Below are positions 921 to 49,715 of a DNA stretch of 62,273 bases, one piece after another. The notes beneath the pieces were generated by a model. It had not been told where the DNA came from, made no database searches, and saw only the letters and a program-made list of their open reading frames with translations. This stretch comes from Saccoglossus kowalevskii. Taxonomy: Eukaryota; Hemichordata; Enteropneusta; Harrimaniidae. Numbering within the stretch: the first letter of the stretch is position 1; each line of letters starts with the position of its first letter. The stretch covers positions 278,305 to 340,577 of the forward strand of contig NW_003152255.1 in NCBI RefSeq assembly GCF_000003605.2, in the 5' to 3' direction. A program made the translations under genes and the position numbers.

Positions 921-1739
921 TCACTCGTAGTAGATACCGTAGACTGTAGCAACCACAAAAACAGACTTGTTTTGGTAACTGACAGACGCGCAATTATCGG
1001 TGTCTGTGTTCCAAACACAACGGCTCACGCAACGCACGTCTTGACCATTTCGCGATCCTATGAGTACTTGTACCACTAGCTTGTAACGCTCATACTCCAG
1101 ACTTTTCAAAAGGTCTTTGATCTTGTTGCTCAGTGTTCCTGTTACCATGGAAGCAGACGATGCATTATACTCATAGCTGTCAAGTTCCGTCTCCAGGAAT
1201 CTGTCTAACATTTTTGTGATTCGCAAAGAATTGAATTTATACCGTTCATCAGGTTTTGTTGGGTTGTTTTTCTTTCTACTTAGTGCTGGCACATCGTCCT
1301 GTATATGTGTACGTTTCCATATTGAAGATATTGGAATTCGTGATTTTTTCGCGGTTGTTGTTGCCCAGGATTGGGGTTTTGAGTCGATGTGGGTTTTACT
1401 TCTTGTCGATAGCTTCACACCATCATTAGTATTGCTACCGCCGCCTGTAGCCGATGCGTGGTCAAAGTTTCGCCCGAATTCCATCAATATTTGCTTCGTC
1501 ACTCTATTATTTTCATCTAAATCCAATCGTCGTAGCCCATCAATTGGTACTTCGTGATGACTTCTTGACATCCCCGGCCTAACGCCACCATTTTGTAAAA
1601 CTCGCCCATGGTTACGAACAGCTTGCTTGTACCCTGGTACAGATCCCGGCAATAATTCCTTTTCGTTCAAATGATCCCGAGTAAGACACGACAATCGTGC
1701 ATCGCCATTACTGGTCGATTGCCAGAACGCTGCCGACAT
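921..1739 (-). CDS. Tctex1/DYNLT-type dynein light chain domain protein
   Basis: Predicted protein of 272 aa. The C-terminal ~106 residues (about 167-272) match the Tctex1 (dynein light chain Tctex-type) fold: an N-terminal helix pair, then ERYKLVVQVLIG, a CVSRCVWNTDTDN segment and the typical ending VATVYGIYYE. This is the pattern of the TCTEX1D/DYNLT family, which act as dynein light chains or ciliary-transport adaptors. The first ~165 residues are polar, with a Gly/Asn-rich patch and a basic SRKKNN stretch, and look disordered. That makes the protein longer than minimal DYNLT proteins (about 115 aa) and more like members with N-terminal extensions. I chose the ATG at 1739; an in-frame extension to 1766 begins with TTG. 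A good acceptor (CCTCTCAG) lies just upstream, so a non-coding 5' exon is possible. The whole domain is in one exon. Orthology within the family is not resolved. Confidence 0.85.
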   Translation of the reverse strand: MSAAFWQSTSNGDARLSCLTRDHLNEKELLPGSVPGYKQAVRNHGRVLQNGGVRPGMSRSHHEVPIDGLRRLDLDENNRVTKQILMEFGRNFDHASATGGGSNTNDGVKLSTRSKTHIDSKPQSWATTTAKKSRIPISSIWKRTHIQDDVPALSRKKNNPTKPDERYKFNSLRITKMLDRFLETELDSYEYNASSASMVTGTLSNKIKDLLKSLEYERYKLVVQVLIGSRNGQDVRCVSRCVWNTDTDNCASVSYQNKSVFVVATVYGIYYE

Positions 1740-2032
1740 GGTCGTCTGAGAGGTTTCCAATTGCAACGTTCAACATTCAACGCAGACCCATAAACTGATG
1801 AACGATGCACTTCAATCCGATGATGACAAGTTTGATCTAAATTAGTTTGACACTGAAGTGCCCCTAGGACGTAAATACTTGTGCTAATACACATCGCTCG
1901 GTAACGTCAAAGTGTCGCGATATTTGCGTCGAACCCCATGTACAAATAACGCTTGAAGTTTATCTCACAGAACGGCTTCAACGATAATCGTATCTCATTT
2001 GAAGGGATCTCCTATCAGAACTGACTCATTAA

Positions 2033-6096: not shown

Positions 6097-6216
6097 TTAA
6101 GCATGCCGCGTCCTGTTCGATATGGGACTCATAGCGACGTATACAACGCGTGTAAAATACGTTGTTTATTTACATGAAATTCGAACACGCGCTGCGCGAC
6201 GACCACTTCGCTTTAA
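6097..6216 (-). mobile_element. TTAA MITE-like element, copy 1
   Basis: Bounded by TTAA on both sides. The body matches the copy at 33202-33334 in the opposite orientation: TCCTGTTCGATATGGGACTC, then a GCGACGTATACAACGCGTG core, a TTTACATGAAATTCGAACAC segment and a CGACGACC terminus. The left terminus is shortened relative to the full copy. Non-autonomous; no ORF. Confidence 0.75.
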
Positions 6217-6603
6217 TTACACATGAAGACATTCTACAGCAACAGACGTATTTTCGTTGCGTTGGAATAATTTACCAATGGCTTTGATAAGACAGTTCAC
6301 TTTCCTGTGATTCACAACTCACCGAAAAGTCACAACAATGTAAAGTAGTTTGGTTTGACGTTACCATTATCATCTGCACACGTTGTCCACTCACTTTTGA
6401 TCAGCTTCACCACAGACCCCTCAACATTGAAGACGAAAACGTCAGATTATTTTCAGTAAGATTTCGTAATCATGACACATGCTATTGTGTCTTTTACGTC
6501 TTGTTGTGTGTTTTGTGACGTCACTTTCCAATTCTCTTTCCCACCGGAGGCTAAATTTAATTTTAACTTTTGCATTTTGGATCATAGTATCACCTTACTC
6601 TAT

Positions 6604-7360
6604 GCCCCGTTTTTAGTCCCCGTTCGGACGCAGTCCGAAAACGGGGACTTATGTTTTGACCTCCGTGTGTCCGTGCGTCCGGACCTGTATCTTAGAAATG
6701 CCTGGATTAATCACAATCAAACTTCACACATACATCATACATGATATTATACATATGAACGTCATTTTGTTTTACGAGCTGATTCAAGATGGCCGAATGA
6801 CGGCCATTTTTGTGCTAAAAAATCCTAAAAATCAACCATTTCTCGGCTGTTTACAGATGGATTTTGTTCAAACTTGCTATATACATTAGACATTATGGGA
6901 CCTTGATGCAAATAATTTTGTTTTTCAGATAAGATTCAAAATGGCCGACTGGCGGCCATTTTATTTTAATGAATGGGCTTCTAGACCCATATCTCAGACT
7001 TGTTTTGACTGATAATATTTTCAAATTTTAAATATTCATTATACATCATGTCATAGATAAACAGATATATTGGTTTGACTATCCTATTCAAAATGGCCGA
7101 ATGGTGGTCATTTTTGTGCTAACAAATCATCAAATATCAAGCATTTATGGGTGATTTCGTTCAAACTTGGTACATACATTAGACATTATGGGTTCCTGAT
7201 GCTCGTCATTTTATTTTTCAGATTGGATTCAAAATGGCTGACTGGCGGCCATTTTGTTTTAATGATTGGGCTTCTAGAGCCATATCTCCTAAATGCTTTG
7301 ACTTATTATATTTAAATTTTATATATTCGTTATACATCATGTTATAAATATACATGTATT
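6604..7360. repeat. compound tandem repeat headed by an AGTCCCCG hairpin
   Basis: Starts with a hairpin at 6615-6649 (AGTCCCCGTTCGGA facing TCCGAAAACGGGGACT). Two ~300-bp diverged copies of one unit follow. Each contains ATGGCCGAATG with GGTCAT/GGCCAT, the phrase TTTGTGCTAA, an ACATTAGACATTATGGG segment, ATGGCCGACTGGCGGCCAT and GGGCTTCTAGA. The ATGGCCG...CGGCCAT pairs are themselves palindromic. Probably a transposon-derived repeat; no coding frame. Confidence 0.7.
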
Positions 7361-8433
7361 CAAAAAGGAATGCTGTTCTAGAGCAATATCTCTCAATATG
7401 GACAAGTACTTGTTATTTTTTGTTATTGACATTTGCCCCAACCGATATAAAAAAGTTCGTCAAAGCACAATATTGTAGTATGTTGAATTTTCTAACAGTA
7501 TCCATGTTCCATAGTTGGGGATAGTGACAGCGCTGTGTGATCATTTCACAACACTGGACATGTTCTAACTCGTTGTTTTCTCGGAACATTCTTGCCTCCA
7601 ATTATGTAAATATTGTCGGTCTGGCATCAACGTCACTAGCTGAGCCTGACACTTGTCAAAGCACAATATTGTAGTATATACAGATGTGATCGAAAGCATT
7701 GACTGACACTGTCATGTCAAGTAAAGTATCACCTATGCTGTAAGCCAGATAACGCACTTGTCCGTTACATCGATATTTGACTTCCATTTTGTGTTAGCGC
7801 CCTCCTGTCGGTTAATAACTTAACGAGGGGACTATTACCTTCAAGTTTTCCTGTACATAATGACATTATGGCAATTGAATGCGCTATCCCAGCTCCAACA
7901 AGTTTGAGCACAGGTACTGTACTGATCAACGTACCTACAATCTCAGTAAGTGGTTATTTCTCATAACCACACAGAATACACGTTGGCGGTCAGCTACACC
8001 TCCGAGATCTACAAGCATTCGCTACCAATAATGGAATTGCTTCATAACTTAAGCACAGACCACTTTCCCGGAAGTCAACGATACCGGACCTGGGGGGGGG
8101 GGGCGGCGTAAACATGCACACGTGATATTGTGCTTGTTAGTGTAATATCTTGGTGTAAAATTCAAGTTTAACCTCTATTTTTGAAGACAGAAATTCTGGT
8201 ATGCTATCATATCATTTTCTAACATTCGTATAATGTACCGAAACATAAAACTTACAAAGATGACATTCTTAACATACCCAGTGTTACAGTATGATAACAC
8301 ACATCAATAATCACCTCTATAAAAACCGACATTCACAATTATTAAACCAATGAGATGAATATGATATTTTATCTTAACCATATCAAAAGATACACAACAA
8401 TCATTCAAGTTTTTTCCGGGACGAATGGATCAA
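7361..8433. other. non-coding stretch
   Basis: No supported gene. It contains a 23-bp perfect direct repeat (GTCAAAGCACAATATTGTAG plus TAT) at about 7459 and 7657, and a G-run at about 8093-8102. Confidence 0.5.
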
Positions 8434-8620
8434 TCATGGACGGGATTGTGAATTTGTGAACTGAATCGATATACCCCACTCCTTGGTAACAATAATAAAC
8501 AGCCGCAACGCTGCAGTGTTTTCTTCATCAGTCACGGTGTTGCGTGCCATAAGCACCATTGACATGATCTCGCGTGAACAAGGCTTATTACACCACTAAA
8601 ATCCAGCATTTCATCAATGA
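8434..8620 (-). pseudogene. frameshifted fragment of the helical-domain family, after the Death-domain exon
   Basis: The block 8576-8620, read on the minus strand, encodes ELVIDEMLDFSGVISL, which aligns with KLAIGDMLDFSGVISL of exon 1 of the neighbouring gene (DNA at 11947-11989). The two are nearly identical over about 40 bp. After a small deletion the reading frame shifts and continues as PCSREIMSMVLMARNTV, resembling the next block of exon 1 (IHETIRVILKILRQY), before a stop near 8434. It lies directly after the Death-domain stop at 8626 and has no obvious acceptor. I read it as a degenerate piece of a paralogous exon now in the 3' flank. Confidence 0.6.
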
Positions 8621-8625
8621 CCAGC

Positions 8626-8948
8626 TCAGTGCCGGTTGTTTGTATCGTTCAATCTATATACAAGCAATCGCAAGTCGTCTAGACATGCGCTAGCCACGTC
8701 TCTTTCTCCGATCTGGATCAGCGACTCGATGAATTTCTCCAACGTTGCGCCGTGTTTACCCTGTTGCCGTTGCCATAGTGATAGCATCTGTGAAGCCATT
8801 TCTTTAATATTCTGGTGGTGTGTTTCTCTTAGTGTTGCTATGTCTGCTATGTTTAGACCAATGGCCAGACCGAAAACCATCAGCATATCCGTTGCGATGT
8901 GGTCCTTTGTAATTCGAATGACCTCTGGCGAAACAGTAGGAGACAAAC
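8626..8948 (-). CDS. Death-domain exon (C-terminal exon of the helical/Death-domain gene)
   Basis: Encodes about 106 aa ending at TGA (8626). Residues ~420-496 of the joined protein match the Death domain pattern: DMLMVFGLAIGLNIADIATL (helices 1-2), then QMLSLWQRQQGKHGAT (helix 4 with the conserved Trp) and LIQIGERDVA (helices 5-6). Death domains are six-helix modules for homotypic signalling in immunity and cell death. The exon has an acceptor TTATATACTAG just before 8948 and starts with the two bases needed to complete a Gly codon. Exon 1 (11299-12517) ends with the matching single G, so the join reads ASVIQ-GLSPTVSPEV in frame. The intron is about 2.35 kb. The Death domain is clear; the join is inference from phase, orientation and splice sites. 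Confidence 0.85.
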
Positions 8949-9567
8949 CTAGTATATAACAACGTAAGCACATATTTCAGTTGAGTGAAAAAAAACATGT
9001 CAACAAATTGCTCTCTGATTGGTTCGACTGTTAAGTGGTAGGTTTGGTTAGCCAATCAGAGATTAATAAGTAGATTCGTATTGACTCCCATATTGTAGCA
9101 AGTTATCTAACAAATATTAGTTTGTATGAATATATAGTAAAATTATTTGGACATGTATATTGAATTTGGTCGAAACGTTATTGATAGTAATCCAATCAAC
9201 CATTTATTTATGAAACAACTATCATACGCGTGTATGATGACCAAATACACCGCAAGGTAAATACTACGTCCAATCAAAGTAAACACACCGTGTACCGGAA
9301 GCAAATCGACTAGCTTCGCGTCACGCCCATTAGCCCCCAGCAAAAAGGCTTATTACGTGTTGGAATCGTGTAACCCGTTCACCCCGATCTACGCTACACA
9401 ACGTAGCCAGATATTAGTGCTGCCGCTTCCAAAAGATCTGTTATAAAACTATATTAGATTCGGTTACGTATCAACTGTCGAATTAGCGAAATGTAACGCG
9501 TTGTGTATACGCAGCTACATTGCAAACACGTGCTATATTGAATGAAACGAGACACAGAAGAACTTGC

Positions 9568-9730
9568 CTTGTGTTAGCAGTATGTGTAGTTTTTGTCGTA
9601 TTTTCATATCCGCACTACTGTCTTCGAGACTTTTCACTCTTCTTTGTAAATCTGTAAAACAATCCGCAAAATGCGTCAATGTGCTTGTTTCTTTTTTTTT
9701 TCTTTTTTTGGACATTTTTTTATTACTCAT
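9568..9730 (-). CDS. candidate alternative first exon (basic cluster + coiled coil) with GC donor
   Basis: ATG at 9730 opens 54 codons, starting MSNKKMSKKRKKK (an NLS-like basic cluster) and followed by a heptad-like segment (FTDLQRRVKSLEDSSADMKI). The frame reaches CAAG|GCAAGT, a close match to the GC-AG donor consensus. The codon phase (CAA G|) is the same as the exon-1 donor at 11299, so splicing to 8948 would give a 161-aa basic-coil-Death protein. It lies inside the intron of the two-exon gene. No good acceptor precedes it, so it would be a first exon from an internal promoter. It could also be a chance A-rich frame. Confidence 0.35.
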
Positions 9731-11298
9731 AAAAAAAATACAGAACTTAAGGAAATAAATACAAAAATAAATAGTAATTTACGCTGTGAAATAGAATCGA
9801 CAATTCCCTTCAATAATATGATATAAGGAAAATTGAAGCGAAGATTTAGACAACATTTGTTCTTTTTTGATTTGCGGGTCGCGGTGTTTTGATTGTTTTT
9901 CAGATGATATACTTGGTATCGTAAATAGATAGCGGGGATAACTTTAAGATTTTTGGAGCATGTTTAAATATTGTTTAAAAAAATAACATCTTCATAAAAA
10001 TCAAATATGGTATAATTTACCGTAAATTAAAAATATGTTTTTACACTAACTATTAGCAATAGTCAGCGCGTTTTACATTCATTCGTCAAACAAAATAAGA
10101 TGAAATGCGCGCAGTTTTTATTGTAAAATAATATTGTTCCTCAAAATATAAATATGAATTATTAATGATGCAATATAGAGGGTAACATATATTTTTAAAT
10201 ATTCCTTTTTGATATTCTGTAGACCAATTCGAAATATGATTTATCATTAACCAGAAATGTTGCGTTTGCAAGACACACAGTATTCGTCAGATGAACATTC
10301 TTAAATATTCTTAAATATACATGTGCCGTTGCACAATGGTATTAGAGAATTGCACTGTTTCATCGAACGAATACACAGATGTGTTCTATAAGAGCAGCGT
10401 TTCATGACAATGTGAATTATAATCCAATGTATTCATCAACGTACAGTATAGAGCAACGATATTAACAATTGTCCTCGTCTACGTTGCATCCTTAAAACAC
10501 AACAAGTAAGTGAGCATTTTTGCTAATATGTAAACAATGAAATTACATTCTGTAATCTATGCAAAACAAGAACAATACTGTCGTCAACAAAGCTAATGAA
10601 TATGTAATAATGTGAGGTAAAGCATATATGACAATTTAAAAAAAAAACTGCTGGTCACTGACCTTTTCCCGATAAAAAATGCACGTCTGGCGCCCATAAT
10701 GGAAATACCAAACTCAATTTAGAGAATATTATTTTGAGCGTGTCTGCCAACAAGTAATTTATTCCGTGTTTATAACGAAATGTTAACTTTTATCGATCGC
10801 ATTCAAGACAATAATAATGTCTATAGTTTTAATTACAAAGCGTTGAGTCCTGTAACCGGGCGTTTTACTGCGGGGTGTTGATTGAAAAACAACTCGGTTA
10901 CGCAATATGGCTTTGTTACTCGTACTACTAAGTTTGATCGTGAGTTTTAGGAGAATTTGTTTAAATTTTAGGGCCATAAATGAAACAATATAATATCGGA
11001 GGGAATTGTAAAGTATTTGTAAACATGAATGAAAGTTACCATTGAGAAGATAATCACAGTGTATTGAAATAAATATAAATCGAACACTGTAACAATGACG
11101 TATACAATGGTGTGTCAACGCAGAACGTTGATTAGATTCGCGTCTTGTCAAATATTAACCACTGAGCCGAACCATTCTGGAACATACGATTCGTGTTTGG
11201 CTTCAAGCATTTCATTATTATCCATACTATTAAGAATTAAGTTATAATTTAATACAAATCTACATATATAAAATAAATTGAAAAAAAAATGTCATTAC
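9731..11298. other. intron of the helical/Death-domain gene (upstream part)
   Basis: AT-rich, no coding signal. The donor is CAAG|GTAATG at 11299/11298 on the minus strand. A tRNA-like A-box (CGGCTCAGTGG, minus strand, 11159-11169) suggests a SINE fragment. Confidence 0.55.
11110..11175 (-). mobile_element. possible tRNA-derived SINE fragment
   Basis: On the minus strand CGGCTCAGTGG matches a Pol III A-box and GACGCGAATCT weakly matches a B-box about 20 nt further on. That spacing is too short for an intact tRNA, so at most it is a decayed SINE head. Confidence 0.25.
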
Positions 11299-12517
11299 CT
11301 TGTATTACACTTGCTTGTATTGATTTTGCCGGAGCAGACTTCATGGATGAGATGCTATTGCCAATATCCGAGCTTTGATCTGTCATAACAAGAGATTCCC
11401 CTTTCTTTACGGCTGGTTTCACGTCAGATCGTCTGCTACCCGCCGAATGGGAATCTTGCGAGTTCCCCAGAACGCCGTTTTCGTGTATGGGCGGAAGAGA
11501 AACCTCGTGGGTTTTCGCCACTTTATTTTTATTTCTTCCCGATGTACCCCTTCTTATTGTCGTAGCCATTTTCATTGTTTGCGTTTCGATGTTTGGAATC
11601 TTCCTTTCTGTGCCATTAACCGCCATGTTGCTATGATAACCGTTTTGGTTGTCAAGATCTTCCGAATGATCCGCTTTTTTCTTGAACTTTTTGAGAGTTG
11701 CATTGTCAAGTTCGTTGTCAGATTCGGCATCTTTGTACTGGTGGACCTGGTCGTGATGATCATCGACCGAGGCAGGTGGGCAATGAACCAACGGTGGCAG
11801 TGATACAGTTTTCTTTCTATCTGAAAGCTTCGAGGGGTTACTCATACTTGGAGCAATACTCCCATCTCCCTCACTCTCATGACCCAAAGATCGGGTGTAC
11901 TGTCGAAGTATTTTTAGAATGACTCGTATGGTTTCGTGTATCGTAGGAGCAAGGCTTATCACCCCACTAAAATCCAGCATGTCACCAATGGCAAGTTTAT
12001 GTCTTTCTCTGTTCAGCGAACTGAAATCATTGTCGTCCTTTAGGAGGGTTTCAAGTCGTAACAATTTAATGTTCAGCGCATGCGCTAAATTCACTCTCTC
12101 CTGGCAGTTGTCCGAGACATCGACCCGCTTTAGTATTTCACTTACAGTCTCATTGAGTTCGTCGCGGTATTCTCGCAAACGATCGATAATAACGAAAAAT
12201 CGGGCGAGAATCTCGGCTTTCACGGTGGTCAGCGGATTCTTGATGTAGTCGATGTACACCACTCTGACGTCAGACAGGCTTTTAACATCGTGTCGTCCGA
12301 CTCGGAGTTTTCGTACCAGTGCGGAGTTTGCTGTCGAATGAATGTAGGTGTCCTTCGACAACCTTGAGGGGCTTTTTAGAGTACTGACGAAGAAATTCTG
12401 CTGCCTGCAAAATGTTTCCCATTGCGTCACACACGCGTTAAGTCCCTCTACCAGTCTGCTGTATTTTTTGTGTATTTCCGCCTTGTACATTATTAGTACT
12501 TTGTCATCCGTTGTCAT
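11299..12517 (-). CDS. helical-domain exon 1 of the helical/Death-domain gene
   Basis: Encodes 406 residues plus one base from ATG 12517 (MTTDDKVLIM). The frame could extend to 12529, but only with TTG. Residues ~1-212 look wholly alpha-helical with several amphipathic segments (IIDRLREYRDELNETVSEIL; NLAHALNIKLLRLETLL; DFSSL; DMLDFSGVISL; IRVILKILRQY). Residues ~213-406 are a polar linker with SLPPL (239-243) and SLPPI (340-344), acidic and Lys-rich patches and Ser-rich stretches. The exon ends at donor CAAG|GTAATG, in phase with the Death-domain exon at 8948. The helical domain is shared with the plus-strand gene at 15421-16497. I do not recognise it. The Death domain suggests an adaptor in an immune or cell-death pathway, which is inference. 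Confidence 0.75.
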
Positions 12518-14441
12518 GTCAGCGTACAAGACATGGTGTTGTAAGATGTAACAGCGTTTAATATTGTGCTAGGCATGACAACGCGTTCAATCCCTGCCAT
12601 CGATCATTATAAATATGTATACGTATTTGTAGTCCGTCCTATAGCAACTGCAAATATCAGAATATGTACAAAAAATAATGAACCATATGAACTATCTGTC
12701 ATAAACATCGACATCGTGTTTCTGTTCAGGTGCGCTCAGCATATTACGACGGACAGGGTATGGGGCAATGCATGACGTTATGTAAAACAGTGTTTAAATG
12801 CGTTCGATGATACTAAATCCTTTCCGGACTGATTTCACAGAAATTCAAATCTAGTTCATCATATAAACAACAATCTATTCACCTGCATCACGATGCCGTT
12901 TCTGTTGCGAATGAAAGGTTGTGAAGAATTCCCCAAATGAGTTACTGAACGAAGTCGTGTAAATAGCGATACCTTTGATTACGATGGTACAATAAGTATA
13001 AGTATGAGTTGTCTTTTTTAGATCATCGTATTGACATCTTGCTGTGTAACTATTCCTCGATCGAATAATCGTTTCGATATTTCATTAAGATTTACCAAAT
13101 TCACTAATTGAAAATAATTTTTGCTTACGTAATATGGATCGTGCTAGTCCAATTCATCAGCACCCTATTTAAAAAAAAAAACGAATGGAAATGCTACAGA
13201 AAGTAAAAGTAAAAATAATCTCACCGATGGTGGGTTATTTTTATCGAGGAAAAAATGACCATTGAATGAACAAAAATAAATAAATCATTCCGACTTCCTG
13301 TGACGGATATTAAAGTAACGAGCCCCTATGGCCACATGCATGGGAAGAAGTTCAGATCTGCGGAGGGATCGAACCTGAGCTTTGCTGACACACGGCGAGA
13401 TACGATGTGCCCCATGATTTGTAAGATAAATGGGAGCTTAGTACGAGTATATCAGGCTACACCTTTGAAGTGGTGCTTAAAGTTAGCAAATTTAAAACGT
13501 ACAATGTTCCTACCTAAATTCATCGCTCGTCCACCGAGCGCAGTCCTTGCGCAATTCACGTCAAATTAATCTACGAAGCGCATAACAAGCAGGACGCATA
13601 GACGTTGTCGACCTCCTGTGTTTTGCGACTTAGTGAACTTTGACCTGACGCGACTCCAGTGCTATTAGAAACTACTTAACATGGCTGGTCGTCATGGTTA
13701 CGTTGTCGAGCACCTGTTCCACATGTTTCATTTCAAATTGCGTTTGTCATGGGCTGGATTTTTTTCTATACAGAGTTTCTATCGATACCAATTGTTTATT
13801 ATGAATTATAAAATGCCTAACCAGCAGCGTGTCGTTTTTACTTCTTGTTTGCGCTACACTAGCCAGCATTCTATAAGCTCTTGCGTATTGGTGCCGAAAC
13901 TGTTAAAATAAAAGTGAACGCAGCGGTGTGTGGCGTTTTTATATGTTGTTGAATTGGTAACCCACCTAATCAAAACACCCGGGGAATGTGTCTGTCGTTG
14001 GTTTTCCATTTAAATTAACCTCCCATCATTGTAATCATTTTTAAAGTTGGAATTGTCAGAACACCATGACCTCTATATTATTAATTTTAAATTTCATTTT
14101 GGCGATTTTACTCGAAAAATACATTACAAAATATGACAGACAAGATACTCCGCGGAAAATTCTACTGACCAATTATGCTGTGGCTGACATGGCAACGCTC
14201 AAGTGGTAGTCAATTGTCTCATCCAGGTTCCATTGATGTCGACGATTACCCTACATAAACATTAATATTGTCATACCAGCTAGTCACTGTTGGTTACAAT
14301 CACATGTTTGCTGTTACTTGGCATCGAGTATTGTTGTCGTACATCAGTTCAGTGTGCACAGACTATGACACAACTGCTTGATTTCACGTTTGTACGTTGT
14401 TTAATTAATGCGGTGAAATTCACGTGGCATTGATTTTAGTG
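12518..14441. other. intergenic region between divergent paralogues
   Basis: Separates the minus-strand helical/Death-domain gene from its plus-strand paralogue and must hold at least the minus-strand promoter. I see no TATA box at a convincing distance and no supported coding sequence. The longest frames start with near-cognate codons or have no domain. Confidence 0.4.
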
Positions 14442-15420: not shown

Positions 15421-16497
15421 ATGGAGGGAGGAAACTTACATACTGACGTTTTACAGGAACAGAACCGAATATTTTACGGTATGATTACGAAGTTGGTGTT
15501 ACAATATGAAAGATTTCTAGACAGGCGAGATTCTTTTGTGAAGGCATTGCGAATGGCAAGCGCAATTAAGAGAGCAGTGCACGTGAGTTATGTACTGGAT
15601 GAAGTTAACGTCGGAGGTACTGGTTTTCCCGCCGAATTCAACGCCAGCTACGGCAACAGCAGGTGCTTTGGCGTGCGAAATATAAACCAAATCAAAGCTT
15701 ACTGTACGCTTCTGAGAGAAAATATTTCAACGGATGAAGGTAACTATATCAAGTGCTTGCAAGACTTTATCAGTACATGGAATTCTTTTAAGGAACTGTT
15801 GAAATACGTTAAAAACAAAGTCTGGCCTGCGAGGTATTCTTGCGAAGCAGAAGTTGGACAGCGCGATATACGCAAAACGTTGGTACATGATATTAATCGA
15901 GCCCTAGAGAGTTGGCACAAACTTCAGCAAGACTATTACGATTTTTCGCAGCTGTATAAAGACCCAACAACCACGCAACTCAGATTCGGGAACGGCTTGC
16001 ATTACAGTTTAAGACGAGAGGATTTCCCATTGTATGGGGGCGCTATGTTGGTTCTCCCAAAATTGGTGAATCTGTCTTTCTTGGTACACGATCTTATTAA
16101 GGACTACTGCTCGATAAACCAGAGACGAACTCACGCGTACAGCTTTCGGAGGTCCGAGACTTACCGGGGAAAGAATCAACCGGATGCAAACACAGTTTTT
16201 GCGAAGCGTGCAAAAGCCGTCGAGCAATCGGAGTCCGAAGGCAACACGTTAGCCACACAGTCTCAGTTCTCGAGAACGTCAAACAAATTGCCACCATTGT
16301 TAGTGACGTCGTCGTTGAAGCTACCCAAAATCTTGTCACCAGGAAATCCCAAACAGTATCACTCCAATGCATACCGCACTATGTACGGCACTACAGCCAA
16401 AAACAGTTACACAGTGGGGGATCCAATGGACAGACTTCGACGCATGGGGGCATCCTTCGACAGGAGTGCCAGATGTTTCTACGCATCCAAGAGATAA
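15421..16497 (+). CDS. helical-domain paralogue without Death domain, 358 aa
   Basis: Uninterrupted frame from ATG 15421 to TAA. Residues ~10-232 are predicted helical and align block by block with exon 1 of the minus-strand gene: RRDSFVKAL with QQNFFVSTL; NINQIKAYC with SLSDVRVVY; TLVHDINRALESW with NLAHALNIKLLRL; YDFSQL (173-178) with NDFSSL; and the last helix before KDY with that before RQY. Overall identity is low, but the order, spacing and the DFS motif agree. Residues ~235-358 form a polar basic tail with NKLPPLL (288-294) and KLPKI (300-304), recalling the SLPPL motifs of the paralogue. No Death domain or intron follows. An acceptor (CGACACAG) ends 2 nt before the ATG, so a 5' exon upstream is likely. 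Function unknown. Confidence 0.75.
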   Translation: MEGGNLHTDVLQEQNRIFYGMITKLVLQYERFLDRRDSFVKALRMASAIKRAVHVSYVLDEVNVGGTGFPAEFNASYGNSRCFGVRNINQIKAYCTLLRENISTDEGNYIKCLQDFISTWNSFKELLKYVKNKVWPARYSCEAEVGQRDIRKTLVHDINRALESWHKLQQDYYDFSQLYKDPTTTQLRFGNGLHYSLRREDFPLYGGAMLVLPKLVNLSFLVHDLIKDYCSINQRRTHAYSFRRSETYRGKNQPDANTVFAKRAKAVEQSESEGNTLATQSQFSRTSNKLPPLLVTSSLKLPKILSPGNPKQYHSNAYRTMYGTTAKNSYTVGDPMDRLRRMGASFDRSARCFYASKR

Positions 16498-17915: not shown

Positions 17916-18768
17916 GCGTAGCTACGTCACAGACGTTCCACGTTGCTAAGACGCGCACCACTGTACTNNNNNNNNNNNNNNNNNNNNNNNNNNNNNNNNN
18001 NNNNNNNNNNNNNNNNNNNNNNNNNNNNNNNNNNNNNNNNNNNNNNNNNNNNNNNNNNNNNNNNNNNNNNNNNNNNNNNNNNNNNNNNNNNNNNNNNNNN
18101 NNNNNNNNNNNNNNNNNNNNNNNNNNNNNNNNNNNNNNNNNNNNNNNNNNNNNNNNNNNNNNNNNNNNNNNNNNNNNNNNNNNNNNNNNNNNNNNNNNNN
18201 NNNNNNNNNNNNNNNNNNNNNNNNNNNNNNNNNNNNNNNNNNNNNNNNNNNNNNNNNNNNNNNNNNNNNNNNNNNNNNNNNNNNNNNNNNNNNNNNNNNN
18301 NNNNNNNNNNNNNNNNNNNNNNNNNNNNNNNNNNNNNNNNNNNNNNNNNNNNNNNNNNNNNNNNNNNNNNNNNNNNNNNNNNNNNNNNNNNNNNNNNNNN
18401 NNNNNNNNNNNNNNNNNNNNNNNNNNNNNNNNNNNNNNNNNNNNNNNNNNNNNNNNNNNNNNNNNNNNNNNNNNNNNNNNNNNNNNNNNNNNNNNNNNNN
18501 NNNNNNNNNNNNNNNCCATCACGGTGAAAACAAAGGTCGAAAACGCTCAGAAAACTATACTTTTGGAATGTTGTTGTGAATCCCCTGAACTGTGTAAACA
18601 GATCACCCCTGCATGTCCAGTATATATAATTATGGTTTTGTGCTGTTTTCTCAAATTTAGCTATTTTCACCGGCGTTCTGCAGCAGCTCGCGCAGAGCCC
18701 GTAGAAATACGTGGTACAGTTGTGCGCGTCTTAGCAATGTGGAAAGTCTTGTGACGACGTAGCTCCGC
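17916..18768. mobile_element. inverted-repeat element enclosing an assembly gap
   Basis: The left arm (17916-17967: GCGTAGCTACGTC...TTGCTAAGACGCGCAC) is mirrored by the right arm (about 18717-18768: GTGCGCGTCTTAGCAATGTG...GACGTAGCT). The arms are about 52 bp and differ by a few substitutions and small indels. The 548-base N run lies inside, next to the left arm. This is a transposable element or large foldback; the unresolved centre is unknown. Confidence 0.65.
17968..18515. other. assembly gap (N run)
   Basis: 548 undetermined bases. Open frames crossing it are artefacts. Confidence 0.99.
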
Positions 18769-20635: not shown

Positions 20636-20772
20636 AGTAAAGGGTTGTAGTCGTCGCGCCGCGTCCTGTTCGATATGGGACTCATAGCGACGTGTATAAC
20701 GCGTGTAAAATACATTGTTTTTTTTTTACATGAAATTCGAACACGCGCTGCACTACGACCGCCACCCTTTAA
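20636..20772 (-). mobile_element. TTAA MITE-like element, copy 2
   Basis: Contains GTCGTCGCGCCGCGTCCTG, TCGATATGGGACTCATAGCG, an ACGCGTGTAAAATACATTG core, a TTTACATGAAATTCGAACAC segment, then CGACCGCCACCCTTTAA. It matches the copy at 6097-6216 in the same orientation, and the right end is TTAA. Confidence 0.75.
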
Positions 20773-20828
20773 TAAGTCAATTTGTTTGCACGGACCAACC
20801 AGGTTGCCTATTACATAGTACGAAGATT

Positions 20829-20906
20829 TGTCGTCACGCCGCGTTCCGTGGGACTCATAGCGACGTGTACAACGCGTGTAAAATACATTGTTTGTATACA
20901 TGAAAT
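20829..20906 (-). mobile_element. TTAA MITE-like element, truncated copy 3
   Basis: GTCGTCACGCCGCGTTCC, GGGACTCATAGCGACGTG and GTGTAAAATACATTG repeat the first half of copy 2, about 190 bp downstream. The second half is missing after the ATACATGAAAT segment. Confidence 0.65.
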
Positions 20907-22232: not shown

Positions 22233-24552
22233 AGGAGTTGGGGGCCGGCACCCATTATGGTTTTCAACTCTGTTAAGATTTAAATTCAGGTTTACCGATC
22301 ATGAACTCGATGCAGCATTCACCACACAAACAGTGACCGGTGCATTCTACTGTTCATGTTCGGACTAAGATTTAATTACAGGTAATACAATACTCTGGAT
22401 TATTACTTAAGAGTATCTGCCGCGGGGCGAATACATCACAGCATCCGGTGTTGTACAAAATATGCTTATACATGTAGTATTATGAATAATTAAGTGGATA
22501 CAACTTAGCTAGTATCGAGGTTTATGGAATTTGTCAACAGTCTTTGGAGGCGTGAGCACAAATCACGACAAGGCGTGATACGTGATAATGTACGTATATC
22601 ATGTGTACTCAGTTCGAAGCACTTCGAATTGATTTATTGTCAAAATGATAATATGTATTGGATGTAGTAATAGGTTCACATGTGTGTTTGTATACTGAAT
22701 CCGTATATATGTACACAAGAGCCGATCAAATTACATGATTTCCCGTCGTTTAAATGAATCCCGATCACTTGCGCCGACCTGCACCGTGGCACGTAATACT
22801 AACCGTCTTTCCGAATTCACAGATCGACCATGCATTGCTGTAGAATAAATGCACAGACTCAAATTGTGTGATCGGCCGACTCGTGAAGGTACATATATAT
22901 TGCAGGTCTCGTTGACTGTCACTATGTTGATTTGACCTTAATAATAAATGTGCCAGTAATGTTTGCTTCAGCAATTTCAGATGAAGGTATTTACACAATA
23001 TGACTCACACGTCATTGTGTGGTTATACAATATTATGTTAGGTGAATGCGTCAGTGTACCGCGCGGTATGACACATTATACGTGTAGTCAGATTTCGGTG
23101 AAAACGGGAAGGGGCGGACGCTACGTTCTACTTATTTTTTTAAAACATCGGTGGTTTGATTGTACAGTAATAGATTCTATTTGTTTAATTGACACGACTC
23201 TGGCGCAGCTGTCATAAATCAGAAGACAATTTTATTAGTGAGTGTATCGGGGTTACGGTTGTTTTTTTAAAGTGATATGCGCTCAATTACAGAAGAGGAT
23301 GTATATAAAGTGCGGTTCGTAGAACATATCTATGTTGCGGATATTACACGCCATGGTTGACAGTTACAGTCATTCGTTAAATTATTGGGGTATTTATCAA
23401 AATGAGGTTCTGTGTTTGCAGATGTAGAGCAATAAGCAGTATAAACTACCCTGACAACGTTTCGAATTTTAGTTTGTAACTTCTTCATAGCCAGCCACAC
23501 TCATTCAACCATTCGTTATTTTAACCTTGCTAGGTATTCATTTATTTAAGAAAAAAATTATAATATTGACGTACACGTTCGATTTCTTAAGTATTTTAAA
23601 AATATTGAAATAATTAAATAAACCAAAACAACATGTTTAAACCGCGTACAGTAAATCCAATGTGGCAGAATAATTTTTTTTTGAAGTTGCATGTGTGTTT
23701 ATTTTGATCATGGAGTAAAGTCGTGTGGCCATTACGTTTACGTCGTTTATGAGAAAAAAAAAAACATGTACTGATTAGTATGTGCGTGTGATGTGATATT
23801 TCAAGGGTATATTCGGTCATTAGCATCATACTCATTCGGCCTCGGGACTCGCTTTCAATTCCTCGGAGGGATAGAAAATACACGTATTAAGACATTGTCC
23901 GTCTTGCTAGTCAATATTCATTCACTAATTCCGCTATGGATTACGTTCATTGAAAATTGAAAAAAAAACAAAACTTAATTTGCATTCCGCATATCCACCA
24001 TTAGAATTTTGTCACACGTTTGACGTATTTTATGACCGTTCAATCTAATTAACTCGTTGTAAGCAATTCGAATAAAAAGTTGTGATTGGTCAGGTGTTTT
24101 GCAATCAGACATATAGAGGAGTATGTTTTACAAATATAAATATATTGGTGTATCTGTGTTTCTGTCATTAAACTGAAGTAAATTGTGTGATAAGAAATAT
24201 AACGATTGTCAACGGCTGTTAAAAGAAACAACTAAAACACGAGTATTTCAATTTAGGTCTTGCCCTGAACGCAATTACACTGTTTACAATGGATACATAT
24301 TAATTCAATGAGTCGTGCATTGTACGTCCATTAATTGAAAGGTTTTCGGTTAAATTTCAATATATGCGTCCTAATTTGCCCTTTATCAGCGAAATTAAAG
24401 TAGATTGGAAGGAATGGCTGTCTTGACAGTAATAGTCAAAGTCAAGTAACAGTAAATTATGTATTGCTATTTCGTGCTCTTTTTAAAGCAACACGAACTT
24501 ATCCTTAAACACTGTGACTGCTAGCAACCATCCACTTTATAGACTAAATTCA
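22233..24552. other. intergenic, no gene seen
   Basis: AT-rich with homopolymer runs. No supported coding frame, RNA gene or repeat. Confidence 0.45.
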
Positions 24553-24879
<327 letters not shown>

Positions 24880-24997
24880 GGAAGTTGTATACTTCATTAT
24901 TGTCATGATCTGTAAATAGCCTTTCTATGCCCAGCACATTAAACTGTCAGTACATTGAATTAGTATGGCATGCGTGGTTATGTCACCCGTCCGTTAC

Positions 24998-31243: not shown

Positions 31244-33201
31244 TTAATGTATGAACCAAATTTTGTGTAAATTGTTGTTTGTTCCAGACACAGAGAGTGC
31301 AGTGGTGTATTAAACCTACTCATAATTTTTGAGAAAGTTGGTCATAAATCGCTTGACAATGTTCAATGGTTCAATTTATTAAAATAGCATTCTTTTGTGT
31401 GTTACAGTAATGAATTTTGAGAAACTTATTTTTAGAACAATTGCATAGAGCATAATGTTAAGCAACACTTGTTTTCGACACTTTTTAAAACCCCGATTTT
31501 TGAAATAATTCAGGAAAACAAAAAGTATCCCGTCATTAACAATATATCATTTTTTAGCCTATGTCACTAGCCTACAATTTCAGATATGGCATAATATTTC
31601 AGCCTTGGGAACCAATGGTAAAAAGACTATTTTACTGCCACAATGGTCAGTATACACAAAAATACCGTCAACCACCATTTTCTCGAAAATTAAGCTGGTG
31701 AACCCCAACTTTTTTTAAAGTAAATATTAAAATTGCCCGCATAAAATTTATTAAAAATGGATAAATTCTGGGTATTTGAACTCATGAGCAGGCTTCTACC
31801 TTAGCAGGTACAGTGTTTATATAACACGAACTGACGCACCCTTTGCCCATATACTATAATGCAATTATTATATAGTTAATGAATAGTGTGGTCGTCGATC
31901 ATCCCGTCGTTAATGTCTCAGTGAACTGATATAAATACAAATACAATTGTATCACAGTGGCCCACAGAATAGGCGATAAAACGATATATATTGGTTCCTG
32001 TTACCCGGCCACAAAAATAAATGACCTCAATGCGAAGGTAGCCGCCCGCGTTAAGTGTACCAGCAAAAAACACACAAACACACACTCTGTGTCGTAACAC
32101 GGTACGACAAGTGGCTAGTAAACACTGCTATGAGCAGTTTATCGAATGGAATATACTCACCGGAAACTGGATAGGTAAAAGATGTGACAAAGTGTGGTCA
32201 GAATGAGACAATTATTTATTTGAAGTCATGTATGTAGATCTCTGGTTATTTTATATAAATATGGTATTACTATCAGTGTATGGTACATTTTACATTTTTT
32301 GGTATAGTGATTAACTTCCAATGTGGAATTACTGGAGAATGTTTCCATAGCCGTGCAATATACTCGTCTACATATCTATTATGGTGTGGTTACCATGGCT
32401 ACGGTATGCATAGGCGTTTTTGTATAAAGTATGCAGTCACCTTAAATAATAGCATGTTTATGGGGGCGGGAAAGGGCCCGTAAACCCGATGCCAATTTCC
32501 AAAGAGACTGAATATTCAGTTGACATCGACAGAAATTACTCCATCAACATTTACTGTTTTCTTGTTTGGAACTATTCAAAACAAATACAAACTATCGTAG
32601 CTGTGATTAAATTATCGTCGTTGGTCACGTTTACTAAACAGCTCTCTAACGATTAGTAACGAGTTCACATTTGAAGCCCGTTTTCCTTAGCCTAGTTTCA
32701 AACAGCCTGAGTCTTGCGGCTTATTTGACATAGTTACCCACACCGCTGTCAAAAACTAGAGTTTCTATTCAAACGATGCCCGAAACGTGGTCTCGACGTA
32801 CCAGGCGCTGTTGTGGATTGAGCACGCACGTGTTCTACGTCTCGCCTTCTTCAATAGCGGTATCAGAAAAAGTTGCCATTCAGCTGACTGATGGCTATTA
32901 TATTTTAAAATTTTCCCATAAAGATTACATTACATCTTTAAAATATGGATGTTTGTTGTTTGATAAGAACGCCGTTATGAACAACGTTTTACTGCATAGG
33001 GTAATAAATACAGACGAGAACGTTCTGTCGTAACTGTGTGGTAATTTTGAAAATGTGTTACAATGCCTCGTAAATAACTTTCAGTTTAAAGGAGAACCCC
33101 ATGTGTCACCTATTTTCACTATATTGTGGTAAATCAATGTATAAAATGAAATAACATATTTTAAACAATTACAGATTTAAGCGTACGAACATAACTAAAA
33201 A
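31244..33201. other. upstream or intronic region of receptor 1, no gene supported
   Basis: AT-rich. An ATG frame of 85 codons at 32776-33033 has no recognisable domain and no supporting signals, so I do not call it. Confidence 0.4.
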
Positions 33202-33334
33202 TTAAAGCGCGGTGGTCGTCGCGCAGCGCGTGTTCGAATTCCATGTAAATAAACAATGTATTTTACACGCGTTGTATACGTCGCTATGAGTCCCACATCG
33301 AACAGGACGCGGCACGACGACTGCCGCCCTTTAA
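33202..33334 (+). mobile_element. TTAA MITE-like element, full reference copy 4
   Basis: 133 bp, TTAA to TTAA. The left end AAAGCGCGGTGGTCGTCGCG and right end CGACGACTGCCGCCCTTTAA are inverted repeats. The centre has TGTATTTTACACGCGTTG and TCGCTATGAGTCCCACATCG. It lies about 140 bp before the putative acceptor of receptor 1, and 250 bp before its ATG. Confidence 0.8.
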
Positions 33335-33476
33335 TTATAACATATTCGGTGTTTGGCGTTCTTCAAGTCGTAGCCTTGTTAGTCAACGTGAGCCGACTAC
33401 GATTAGCGATATGATTGGCCCTTGGCGTTTTGTCTAGATCTGTGAATGCATTAATTTTTCAACCTTTCTTATGCAG

Positions 33477-33582
33477 ATATATTTCAACAACTGTGCTTCA
33501 GTGGATATTATCTCTCTGTCGTTGTTATTCGAGAGATGGGCGCCATCGTGGAAAACTATCGATCATTGTAGATAGCGTGTGG
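33477..33582 (+). other. 5' untranslated part of the receptor-1 coding exon
   Basis: A strong acceptor (TTTTTCAACCTTTCTTATGCAG) ends at 33476. From there to the ATG at 33583 the sequence is likely 5' UTR. The same frame is open upstream of the ATG but has no earlier ATG. Confidence 0.45.
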
Positions 33583-35427
33583 ATGGAACGAGCTTGGCTC
33601 ACACACTTTGGAAATAGTCTAGGTGCTATGCATGAAGCAACTGGGCGCGCTGACGAAGTTCTCTTTACAACCACTAGTAGCGGGTTTTTCTCGTCTCATA
33701 ATGGAGCTTCTAAACAACTTAGCCAGAGTTTCGAAAGCAATCCATACACCGCCAGTTGGACACCTGGTTCTGCGTCGACATGGTTTATTGGTAACAGTAC
33801 GGTACAGCCGACGACGGAATTCCTTTTGCCGGAATCGCCGTACTCGTCTGGACTTATCATCATACTCATGACAGCGGCCGTGACGATTACGGTATTTGCG
33901 ATCGTCGGGAATACTCTCATCATAGCGGCGTTTATAACCACTCGCCGTCTACGGAAACTGACCATCTATTTCTACTTCAGTCTAGCGATATCCGACCTTG
34001 CCGCCGGTCTACTGGTAATGCCGTTCATGATTTCTTTTACACTTAATTCATACTGGAAGTTCGGAAAGACAATTTGTGTGGTATGGCTGTGCATTGACAT
34101 GTTCGTATACTCAACATCGGTGTACCACATGTGTGTCATATGCTTGGACCGTTTTCTGGCTGTCAAATATCCGTTCCGCTATCGCGTCAAAAGAACGAAA
34201 AAACTCATACTGACGTTTATTGGGGTTGCGTGGGGATTGGGCCTTGTAACCGAAGTGCCCATCACGATACTATACGAACACATTGTTGGGGAGAGCGTTA
34301 TTGACTATCGGGTTGAATGTGACGTGGAGTGGGTAGGCAACGCGATCGTCACAATATGTAGCTTTCTAGTTACGGTCGTAATCCCGTTCTTTTTCATGTT
34401 AATTTTGTACGGCCAAATATTCTATATAATTCGTAAACGGGGAGAAGCTTTAAAGGCGAGCACTTTACGCGCATCTTCCGGTGAAACGAACGAAATAAAG
34501 GAGGACGCGCAATCAAAGAAACACTTTTCCGTGGCAGGTCTATTTTCTAAACGACTAAAAGCAGAAAAAGATTGTGGTGATGCGAATGAATCGAAATCAG
34601 TTGGTGATAAAAAGGAGAACAAATCTTCGAATAAAACACCAATTAAGTTACGTTGGACCTTCTGGCCGGGAAAGCAAAAAAGCTACGATTTGTCAGATAT
34701 AGTAGCAGACAATGGCGACCCGGGAACAGGTTGTGTGGCGGCCGCCAAGTACAACAGAAGAAGCGATGAAGTTATACTATCCAGTTACGTAAACATCGGA
34801 TTTAGTTTTGACGAATTCTCGACGGGTTCATCACAGGGTTTAAAAGACAATTGTTCTGAGCAGACCCCCAACGATCTCCATCAAATAACAAGCGACGAAA
34901 ACGTGTCGCCAGCTTTCTATTCGAATCAGTCACTTGAGATCGAGTCTTCTTTAAACAATAACACCGAGCCGTCATCGGCAAATACCGTCGAAGAAAACAC
35001 GCGTAACAGGGACAGAACACACCCCAACACGATTAAAAAGAAAACGGTTAATGAAACACATCACAAGTCATCCGGGAAGTCTCGATCAAGTGAAGTGAGG
35101 GCTGCAACGACACTCGGAATCCTACTCGGCGTATTTCTCATCACTTGGTTGCCATGGAAAATAACGACGATCGTGGACGCGTTCGCAAACACGTACACGT
35201 TTCCCGACGTTTGGTACGACATCGCTATATGGCTACAATATTCTAACTCAATGATAAATCCGTTCTTATACGTGTTCAGAGAGAAAAACTTCAGAATAGC
35301 GATTAAAAGAATCCTGTGCCGGGTATTTTGTTGCCGAAAAAACGCATCGTCATCTCCAGTTTATTCCACGGGGTCGCGTAGCTCGGTGGCAACGGTATCA
35401 CGAAAGACCAGTCCACATCGTAAATAA
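33583..35427 (+). CDS. aminergic-type class A GPCR 1, large third loop
   Basis: 614 aa from ATG 33583 (a second ATG at 33628 would give 599). The N-terminus has an NST sequon. Seven TMs are visible: N1.50 (110), D2.50 in AISDL (138), C3.25 (165), the amine-anchor D3.32 (172), DRF at 3.49-3.51 (189-191), ECL2 Cys in ECDVEW (246), S5.42/T5.46/P5.50 (260/264/268), TWLPW in TM6 (521-525), Y7.43 (553) and NPFLY in TM7. ICL3 is about 220 aa, charged and Ser-rich. YPFRYRVKRTKK after TM3 recalls muscarinic and histamine H3-like receptors. Trp at 6.51 and Lys at 6.52 (525-526) differ from known amine receptors. Likely plasma-membrane and G-protein coupled; ligand unknown. The paralogue lies 14 kb downstream, same strand. 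Coding exon uninterrupted. Confidence 0.9.
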   Translation: MERAWLTHFGNSLGAMHEATGRADEVLFTTTSSGFFSSHNGASKQLSQSFESNPYTASWTPGSASTWFIGNSTVQPTTEFLLPESPYSSGLIIILMTAAVTITVFAIVGNTLIIAAFITTRRLRKLTIYFYFSLAISDLAAGLLVMPFMISFTLNSYWKFGKTICVVWLCIDMFVYSTSVYHMCVICLDRFLAVKYPFRYRVKRTKKLILTFIGVAWGLGLVTEVPITILYEHIVGESVIDYRVECDVEWVGNAIVTICSFLVTVVIPFFFMLILYGQIFYIIRKRGEALKASTLRASSGETNEIKEDAQSKKHFSVAGLFSKRLKAEKDCGDANESKSVGDKKENKSSNKTPIKLRWTFWPGKQKSYDLSDIVADNGDPGTGCVAAAKYNRRSDEVILSSYVNIGFSFDEFSTGSSQGLKDNCSEQTPNDLHQITSDENVSPAFYSNQSLEIESSLNNNTEPSSANTVEENTRNRDRTHPNTIKKKTVNETHHKSSGKSRSSEVRAATTLGILLGVFLITWLPWKITTIVDAFANTYTFPDVWYDIAIWLQYSNSMINPFLYVFREKNFRIAIKRILCRVFCCRKNASSSPVYSTGSRSSVATVSRKTSPHRK

Positions 35428-36604: not shown

Positions 36605-36736
36605 GTCATAATCGTCGCGCATCGCGAGTTTCAGTGTCATGTAAATGAACAATGTATTTTACACGCGTTGTATACGGACATGTGTCAGAAGGGACCAACA
36701 TCGAACATGACGCAGTGCGGCGATTGCTCATTTTAA
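36605..36736 (+). mobile_element. TTAA MITE-like element, diverged copy 5
   Basis: Contains AATCGTCGCGCATCGCGAG, ATGTAAATGAACAATGTATT, TTACACGCGTTGTATACG, then ACATCGAACATGACGCAGTG and a TTTTAA end. Same order and orientation as the copy at 33202-33334, with an altered centre. Confidence 0.7.
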
Positions 36737-45361: not shown

Positions 45362-46076
45362 NNNNNNNNNNNNNNNNNNNNNNNNNNNNNNNNNNNNNNN
45401 NNNNNNNNNNNNNNNNNNNNNNNNNNNNNNNNNNNNNNNNNNNNNNNNNNNNNNNNNNNNNNNNNNNNNNNNNNNNNNNNNNNNNNNNNNNNNNNNNNNN
45501 NNNNNNNNNNNNNNNNNNNNNNNNNNNNNNNNNNNNNNNNNNNNNNNNNNNNNNNNNNNNNNNNNNNNNNNNNNNNNNNNNNNNNNNNNNNNNNNNNNNN
45601 NNNNNNNNNNNNNNNNNNNNNNNNNNNNNNNNNNNNNNNNNNNNNNNNNNNNNNNNNNNNNNNNNNNNNNNNNNNNNNNNNNNNNNNNNNNNNNNNNNNN
45701 NNNNNNNNNNNNNNNNNNNNNNNNNNNNNNNNNNNNNNNNNNNNNNNNNNNNNNNNNNNNNNNNNNNNNNNNNNNNNNNNNNNNNNNNNNNNNNNNNNNN
45801 NNNNNNNNNNNNNNNNNNNNNNNNNNNNNNNNNNNNNNNNNNNNNNNNNNNNNNNNNNNNNNNNNNNNNNNNNNNNNNNNNNNNNNNNNNNNNNNNNNNN
45901 NNNNNNNNNNNNNNNNNNNNNNNNNNNNNNNNNNNNNNNNNNNNNNNNNNNNNNNNNNNNNNNNNNNNNNNNNNNNNNNNNNNNNNNNNNNNNNNNNNNN
46001 NNNNNNNNNNNNNNNNNNNNNNNNNNNNNNNNNNNNNNNNNNNNNNNNNNNNNNNNNNNNNNNNNNNNNNNNNNNN
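45362..46076. other. assembly gap (N run)
   Basis: 715 undetermined bases. Frames across it are artefacts. Confidence 0.99.
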
Positions 46077-49321: not shown

Positions 49322-49715
49322 ATCGTTAAGGTGGTCCAGCCTGGACGCGATAACACTGAGATGGGGGTCACGGTCACCAACGCGGAGGTTGATGTAGCGT
49401 GGGGTTAGTATATACGACCATTATCGAACAGATCTGAGAGTGGTTCACCGTGTGGTCGTTACACGAGTATATACATTTCCGACCTAAGGCCAACAAACAG
49501 TGTTAAATCAGACCGCGACAGCAGTTTACTTAGGAACGCCACTGCAATACGGGCATTAGAATCACCAGTAATAGCGTTAGCGTACCTTAACTTCAGAAAG
49601 TGTTTGTAAGCCTGTCACGTTACGACGCAGGGTAATGTCATCGCAGTTGTGATCACGTCATCTACACTGAGGGGTGTTTGCATCGATACGTGGTATCAGA
49701 CGACAACGTGAATTT
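49322..49715 (+). other. 5' untranslated part of the receptor-2 exon
   Basis: Begins after the acceptor at 49321 and runs to the ATG at 49716. The frame is open a short way upstream, but begins with GTG and has no ATG. Confidence 0.4.

Follow-up and report, generated by a model that had tools for sequence, protein, structure and literature searches.

A stretch of 62,273 nucleotides from the genome of Saccoglossus kowalevskii (contig NW_003152255.1, positions 278,305 to 340,577; referred to here as the window, with positions counted from its first letter) carries on its minus strand an animal gene that we read, with slightly better than even confidence, as coding for a cytoplasmic Death-domain adaptor. 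The predicted protein has 513 or 541 amino acids (aa) and consists of an N-terminal helical domain, a linker and a C-terminal Death domain. The helical domain matches no family in the libraries searched, and a divergent copy of it is found in a neighbouring gene. The main parts of the adaptor gene are as follows.

11299..12517, minus strand: exon 1, with the helical domain (residues 1-211) and a hydrophilic linker (residues 212-406), from the open frame and the coding score.
11789..11803, minus strand: SLPPL motif, residues 239-243, from a motif search.
11486..11500, minus strand: SLPPI motif, residues 340-344, from a motif search.
8626..8948, minus strand: last exon, with the Death domain and the stop codon, from Pfam PF00531 and a fold search.

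The frame of exon 1 is opened by the ATG at 12517 (minus strand), and the exon ends at 11299 in CAAG|GTAATG with one base to spare (phase 1). The exon at 8948 is preceded by ...ATACTAG and opens with GT, the two bases needed to finish a glycine codon (GGT). When 12517-11299 is joined to 8948-8626, the frame is in phase and open over 513 aa, with the TGA ending at 8626. The leftover base, the AG before the second exon and the open minus-strand join of 513 aa are thus as the initial annotation had described them; of the two-exon gene that it proposed, the join is allowed by the frame, but the splice is unproven and an 84-nucleotide third exon is a fair candidate. Exon 1 lies in a stop-free run of 439 aa, which exceeds chance: the longest runs in 60 Markov-1 simulations of the window had a mean of 152 and a maximum of 203 aa. 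With codon usage trained on the two G-protein-coupled receptor (GPCR) open reading frames (ORFs) and the Tctex ORF of the window, exon 1 scores +79.3 and the Death exon +15.3 in their own frames; the latter value is to be read with caution, as one antisense frame of the Death exon reaches +17.7, slightly above it.

Death domains assemble homotypically in immune and cell-death pathways. The Death exon alone matches PF00531 with 33.3 bits (E 5.5e-8), against a curated cut-off of 22.6, and within the 541-aa protein the match has 31.3 bits (E 2.3e-7). It spans profile positions 23-83 of 86, with the first 22 unmatched. The fold search gives weak yet consistent support, and agrees with Pfam on the Death domain that had been assigned to the last exon. 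The domains closest to the Death exon by sequence or fold include the Death domains of THOC1 and ankyrins, that of THOC1 being the best Death-domain match by sequence (E 0.012). A phmmer search for a second Death domain in 358 ORF pieces of the window (at least 50 aa; 5 of 363 pieces, those with tandem repeats, were left out) returned only the Death exon itself at E below 1, the other matches having E values of 1.5 and 4.2.

Residues 1-211 have no credible match in Pfam, NCBIfam, PADLOC or PDB sequences, and no profile search of these libraries gave the confident known-domain match that the initial annotation had named as refuting. Pfam at a maximum E of 10 returned only DASH_Dad4 (0.16), at a setting where the HMMER filters drop most weak matches. 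The structure model, made from a two-sequence alignment, is all-helical, with long helices at residues 3-48, 81-131, 138-160 and 184-210 and a mean predicted local distance difference test score (pLDDT) of 53. The model supports a helical domain and nothing beyond. Of the earlier claim of a new, unrecognised helical domain, the helical character, the lack of a library match and at least two local members therefore stand; novelty of the fold is not supported, because the model is poor. Pattern searches of IMG/VR and GTDB contigs gave 55 and 18 matches with no confirmed relative, a null of little weight because neither collection is animal.

The evidence that the helical domain belongs to a family comes from a gene that lies head to head with the Death-domain gene, the two start codons being 2.9 kb apart.

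15421..16497, plus strand: neighbouring gene, a single ORF coding for a 358-aa paralogue of the helical domain; it carries the motifs KLPPL and KLPKI, and a Death domain was not found in it.

The two proteins are 25% identical across the length of the domain. The global alignment score lies above all 1000 shuffles in each of four controls (two matrices, with whole-sequence shuffles and with windows of 20), at 52 (shuffle mean 11.6, standard deviation 5.7) and 75 (mean 24.1, standard deviation 8.9). The local score was reached by 1 of 1000 shuffles in the BLOSUM62 whole-sequence control and in the BLOSUM45 windowed control, and by no shuffle in the remaining two of the four; in pairwise BLASTP the best piece has an E value of 0.005 (27% identity over 77 columns). 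By these alignments, the neighbour carries a diverged, paralogous copy of the helical domain, which for this reason can be called a family, with at least two members at this locus. Pfam finds no match in the neighbour at E 0.1, and none of its eight best GT sites falls between 16066 and the stop at 16497, the best site being at 15739. If the splice is right, one copy of the helical domain is thus linked to a Death domain and the other is not; the Death-less paralogue could act as a partner or a decoy, or it could use the domain independently. The assembly has runs of N at 17968-18515 and 45362-46076, and the first, behind the neighbour gene, could hide an exon.

The repeated SLPPL/SLPPI motifs noted earlier are present in the linker, starting at residues 239 and 340, and none of 20,000 linker shuffles gave two SLPP[LI] motifs, for a pattern picked after the sequence had been viewed. 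The KLPPL and KLPKI pair of the neighbour likewise lies behind the helical part, and both proteins share the pattern [SK]LP[PK][LI], of which no pair arose in 20,000 shuffles for either protein (a pattern again chosen post hoc). One ankyrin-repeat docking motif is PxLPx[IL]; SLPP[LI] was considered as an instance of it and set aside, the leading proline being absent.

The supposed intron contains a possible further exon.

9568..9651, minus strand: candidate internal exon of 84 nucleotides, phase 1-1, coding for 28 residues (DLQRRV...ILLTQ), from splice-site scores; uncertain, with a weak coding score.

It is flanked by the acceptor TTGTTTTACAG and a GC-type donor, CAAG|GCAAGT, and its inclusion leaves the frame open and gives the protein of 541 aa. 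With general splice-site frequencies, this donor has the top donor-like score of the GT and GC sites in 8300-13000 (8.8 versus 3.9 for 11299). The acceptor at 9651 ranks 12th among 189 AG sites, and the length is divisible by 3 with phase 1 on both sides. On the other side, the coding score is low (+2.5), sixth among 10 open phase-matched intron segments, and three of the remaining nine are variants that share its donor; GC donors are rare (about 1% of introns); and the heptad count of the segment is unremarkable, since hydrophobic residues fill no more than 6 of 11-12 a/d places. We give even chances to this three-exon form, a version of the same adaptor gene in which 28 residues are added between the linker and the Death domain. 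The insert would perhaps form a short helix that helps clustering.

Several observations weigh against a spliced adaptor gene. Left unspliced, exon 1 is an open ORF of 422 aa ending at 11249, and an ATTAAA at 11253 overlaps its stop codon; the neighbouring paralogue, too, consists of one ORF in which Pfam finds no Death domain. The donor at 11299 ranks second of 219 GT sites but only fifth once GC sites and the whole of 8300-13000 are included, the acceptor at 8948 is unremarkable, ranking 52nd among 189 AG sites, and the splice from 11299 to 8948, predicted from the sequence of one genome, is unproven. The mean pLDDT of the helical model, given above, is low, the Death model has a pLDDT of 62 with a best Foldseek E value not below 0.04, and no further Death-domain, kinase or caspase gene was seen among the few ORFs of the window scanned with Pfam (nine sequences in all). 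Both frames being open unspliced, the ATTAAA and the single-ORF neighbour would fit two separate genes, a single-exon helical protein of 422 aa (12517-11249) and either a small stand-alone Death gene or the final exon of some other gene, with a possible start at an ATG at 8973. We consider two genes unlikely, though worth keeping in view: the ORF of exon 1 crosses its highly ranked donor 16 codons ahead of the stop, the run beyond that donor, FFSIYFIYVDLY, resembles T-rich intron sequence, and the acceptor of the Death exon is compatible in phase.

A trace of exon 1 was also found behind the Death exon.

8576..8624, minus strand: 49-nucleotide relic of the exon 1 coding sequence, identical at 42 of 49 positions, beginning one base past the stop codon of the Death exon.

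Its alignment score is 70, whereas 200 shuffles reached at most 33 (40 when the longer stretch 8100-8625 is used), and it does not extend beyond the 49 nucleotides (score 19, matched by 162 of 500 shuffles). The relic is a third, dead trace and is evidence of local duplication. Its position right behind the stop codon would also suit a decaying gene or pseudogene that arose by such duplication, a reading we hold to be improbable, since the two main exons have open frames with a coding bias. A further alternative concerns function and is compatible with the gene model: the Death domain may work in a structural or nuclear complex, like those of ankyrins and THOC1, instead of acting in immunity or cell death. 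The presence of those two among its closest relatives by sequence or fold points this way; we regard it as doubtful.

For the adaptor, the proposed order of parts is a bundle-like helical domain, a long hydrophilic linker that holds the two SLPP[LI] motifs, perhaps a short helix, and then the Death domain at the C-terminus. The helical domain, the LPP motifs or both would dock on or oligomerise with a partner, which perhaps includes the head-to-head paralogue. Such clustering would then gather the Death domains, and these would assemble with a Death domain in a receptor, a kinase or another adaptor. We infer the docking and assembly, and an immune or cell-death role, as we do the splice; the adaptor role is a prediction and a reasonable inference. 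It is also possible, and we put it forward tentatively, that the helical domain founds an undescribed animal signalling family whose members can be arranged as head-to-head pairs of a Death-bearing signaller and a Death-less partner, decoy or inhibitor, with paired LP[PK][LI] docking motifs.

Elsewhere in the window, 921-1766 (minus strand) codes for a Tctex-1 family domain of the dynein light chain type (Pfam E 5.7e-28). Two single-ORF rhodopsin-type GPCRs at 33415-35424 and 49671-51617 (both plus strand) are mutual paralogues with 42% identity over 605 columns; the nearest PDB sequences to the first are aminergic (histamine H4 and muscarinic M3, among the best 60 of 289). Two adjoining units of about 340 nucleotides, 78% identical, make up 6717-7354. 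An interspersed repeat occurs at 6104-6218, 20658-20773, 20849-20906, 33200-33314 and 36612-36676, the copies being 88-96% identical to that at 6104-6218. The long T/A-rich tandem array at 24521-24946 (minus strand), which reads as LFIY repeats, is probably not a gene. Searches of the whole window for tRNAs, and for Rfam families at the gathering threshold, found none.

FADD, RAIDD/CRADD and other small adaptors resemble the predicted protein in carrying a C-terminal Death domain behind another helical domain. In FADD and RAIDD/CRADD that domain is a DED or CARD of about 80-100 residues, whereas here the helical part has about 210 residues and is followed by a long linker. Pfam, searched with the 541-aa protein up to an E value of 1, gave neither a DED nor a CARD, although a divergent domain is possible. 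THOC1 (p84) likewise combines a large helical N-terminal part with a C-terminal Death domain; unlike it, the N-terminal part here finds no PDB THOC1 chain at E up to 10, with chains of 657 and 711 residues searchable. TRADD, according to PMC8195603, has an N-terminal interaction domain and a C-terminal Death domain, but TRADD-N has an alpha+beta, RRM-like fold, in contrast to the N-terminal part here, predicted all-helical by a poor model and without a library match. The same paper describes many lineage-specific combinations of TRADD-N and Death-superfamily domains in marine invertebrates, with shuffled partner domains. In amphioxus, novel Death-domain combinations such as death-caspase and death-NACHT are described in PMC2575513. 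The present gene resembles these as a lineage-specific animal Death architecture made by domain shuffling, and differs in that both partners are known domains there, while one partner here has no family match.

A word-based literature search that took in few subscription journals found no description of this helical-domain and Death-domain combination, including in passages of PMC8195603, PMC2575513 and PMC2246300. The gene fits the invertebrate pattern of lineage-specific Death combinations, the difference being the partner domain without a family match. Because lineage-specific combinations are well documented in invertebrates (PMC8195603, PMC2575513), a single one is of moderate interest before its distribution and partners are established. 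Death domains act as assembly modules whose input is set by the fusion partner. To our knowledge, the catalogue of animal Death-domain pathways holds no input and antagonist of the kind that this locus may represent: if adjacent genes do share the partner domain, one having a Death domain and the other lacking it, this would point to a new input and a possible built-in antagonist.
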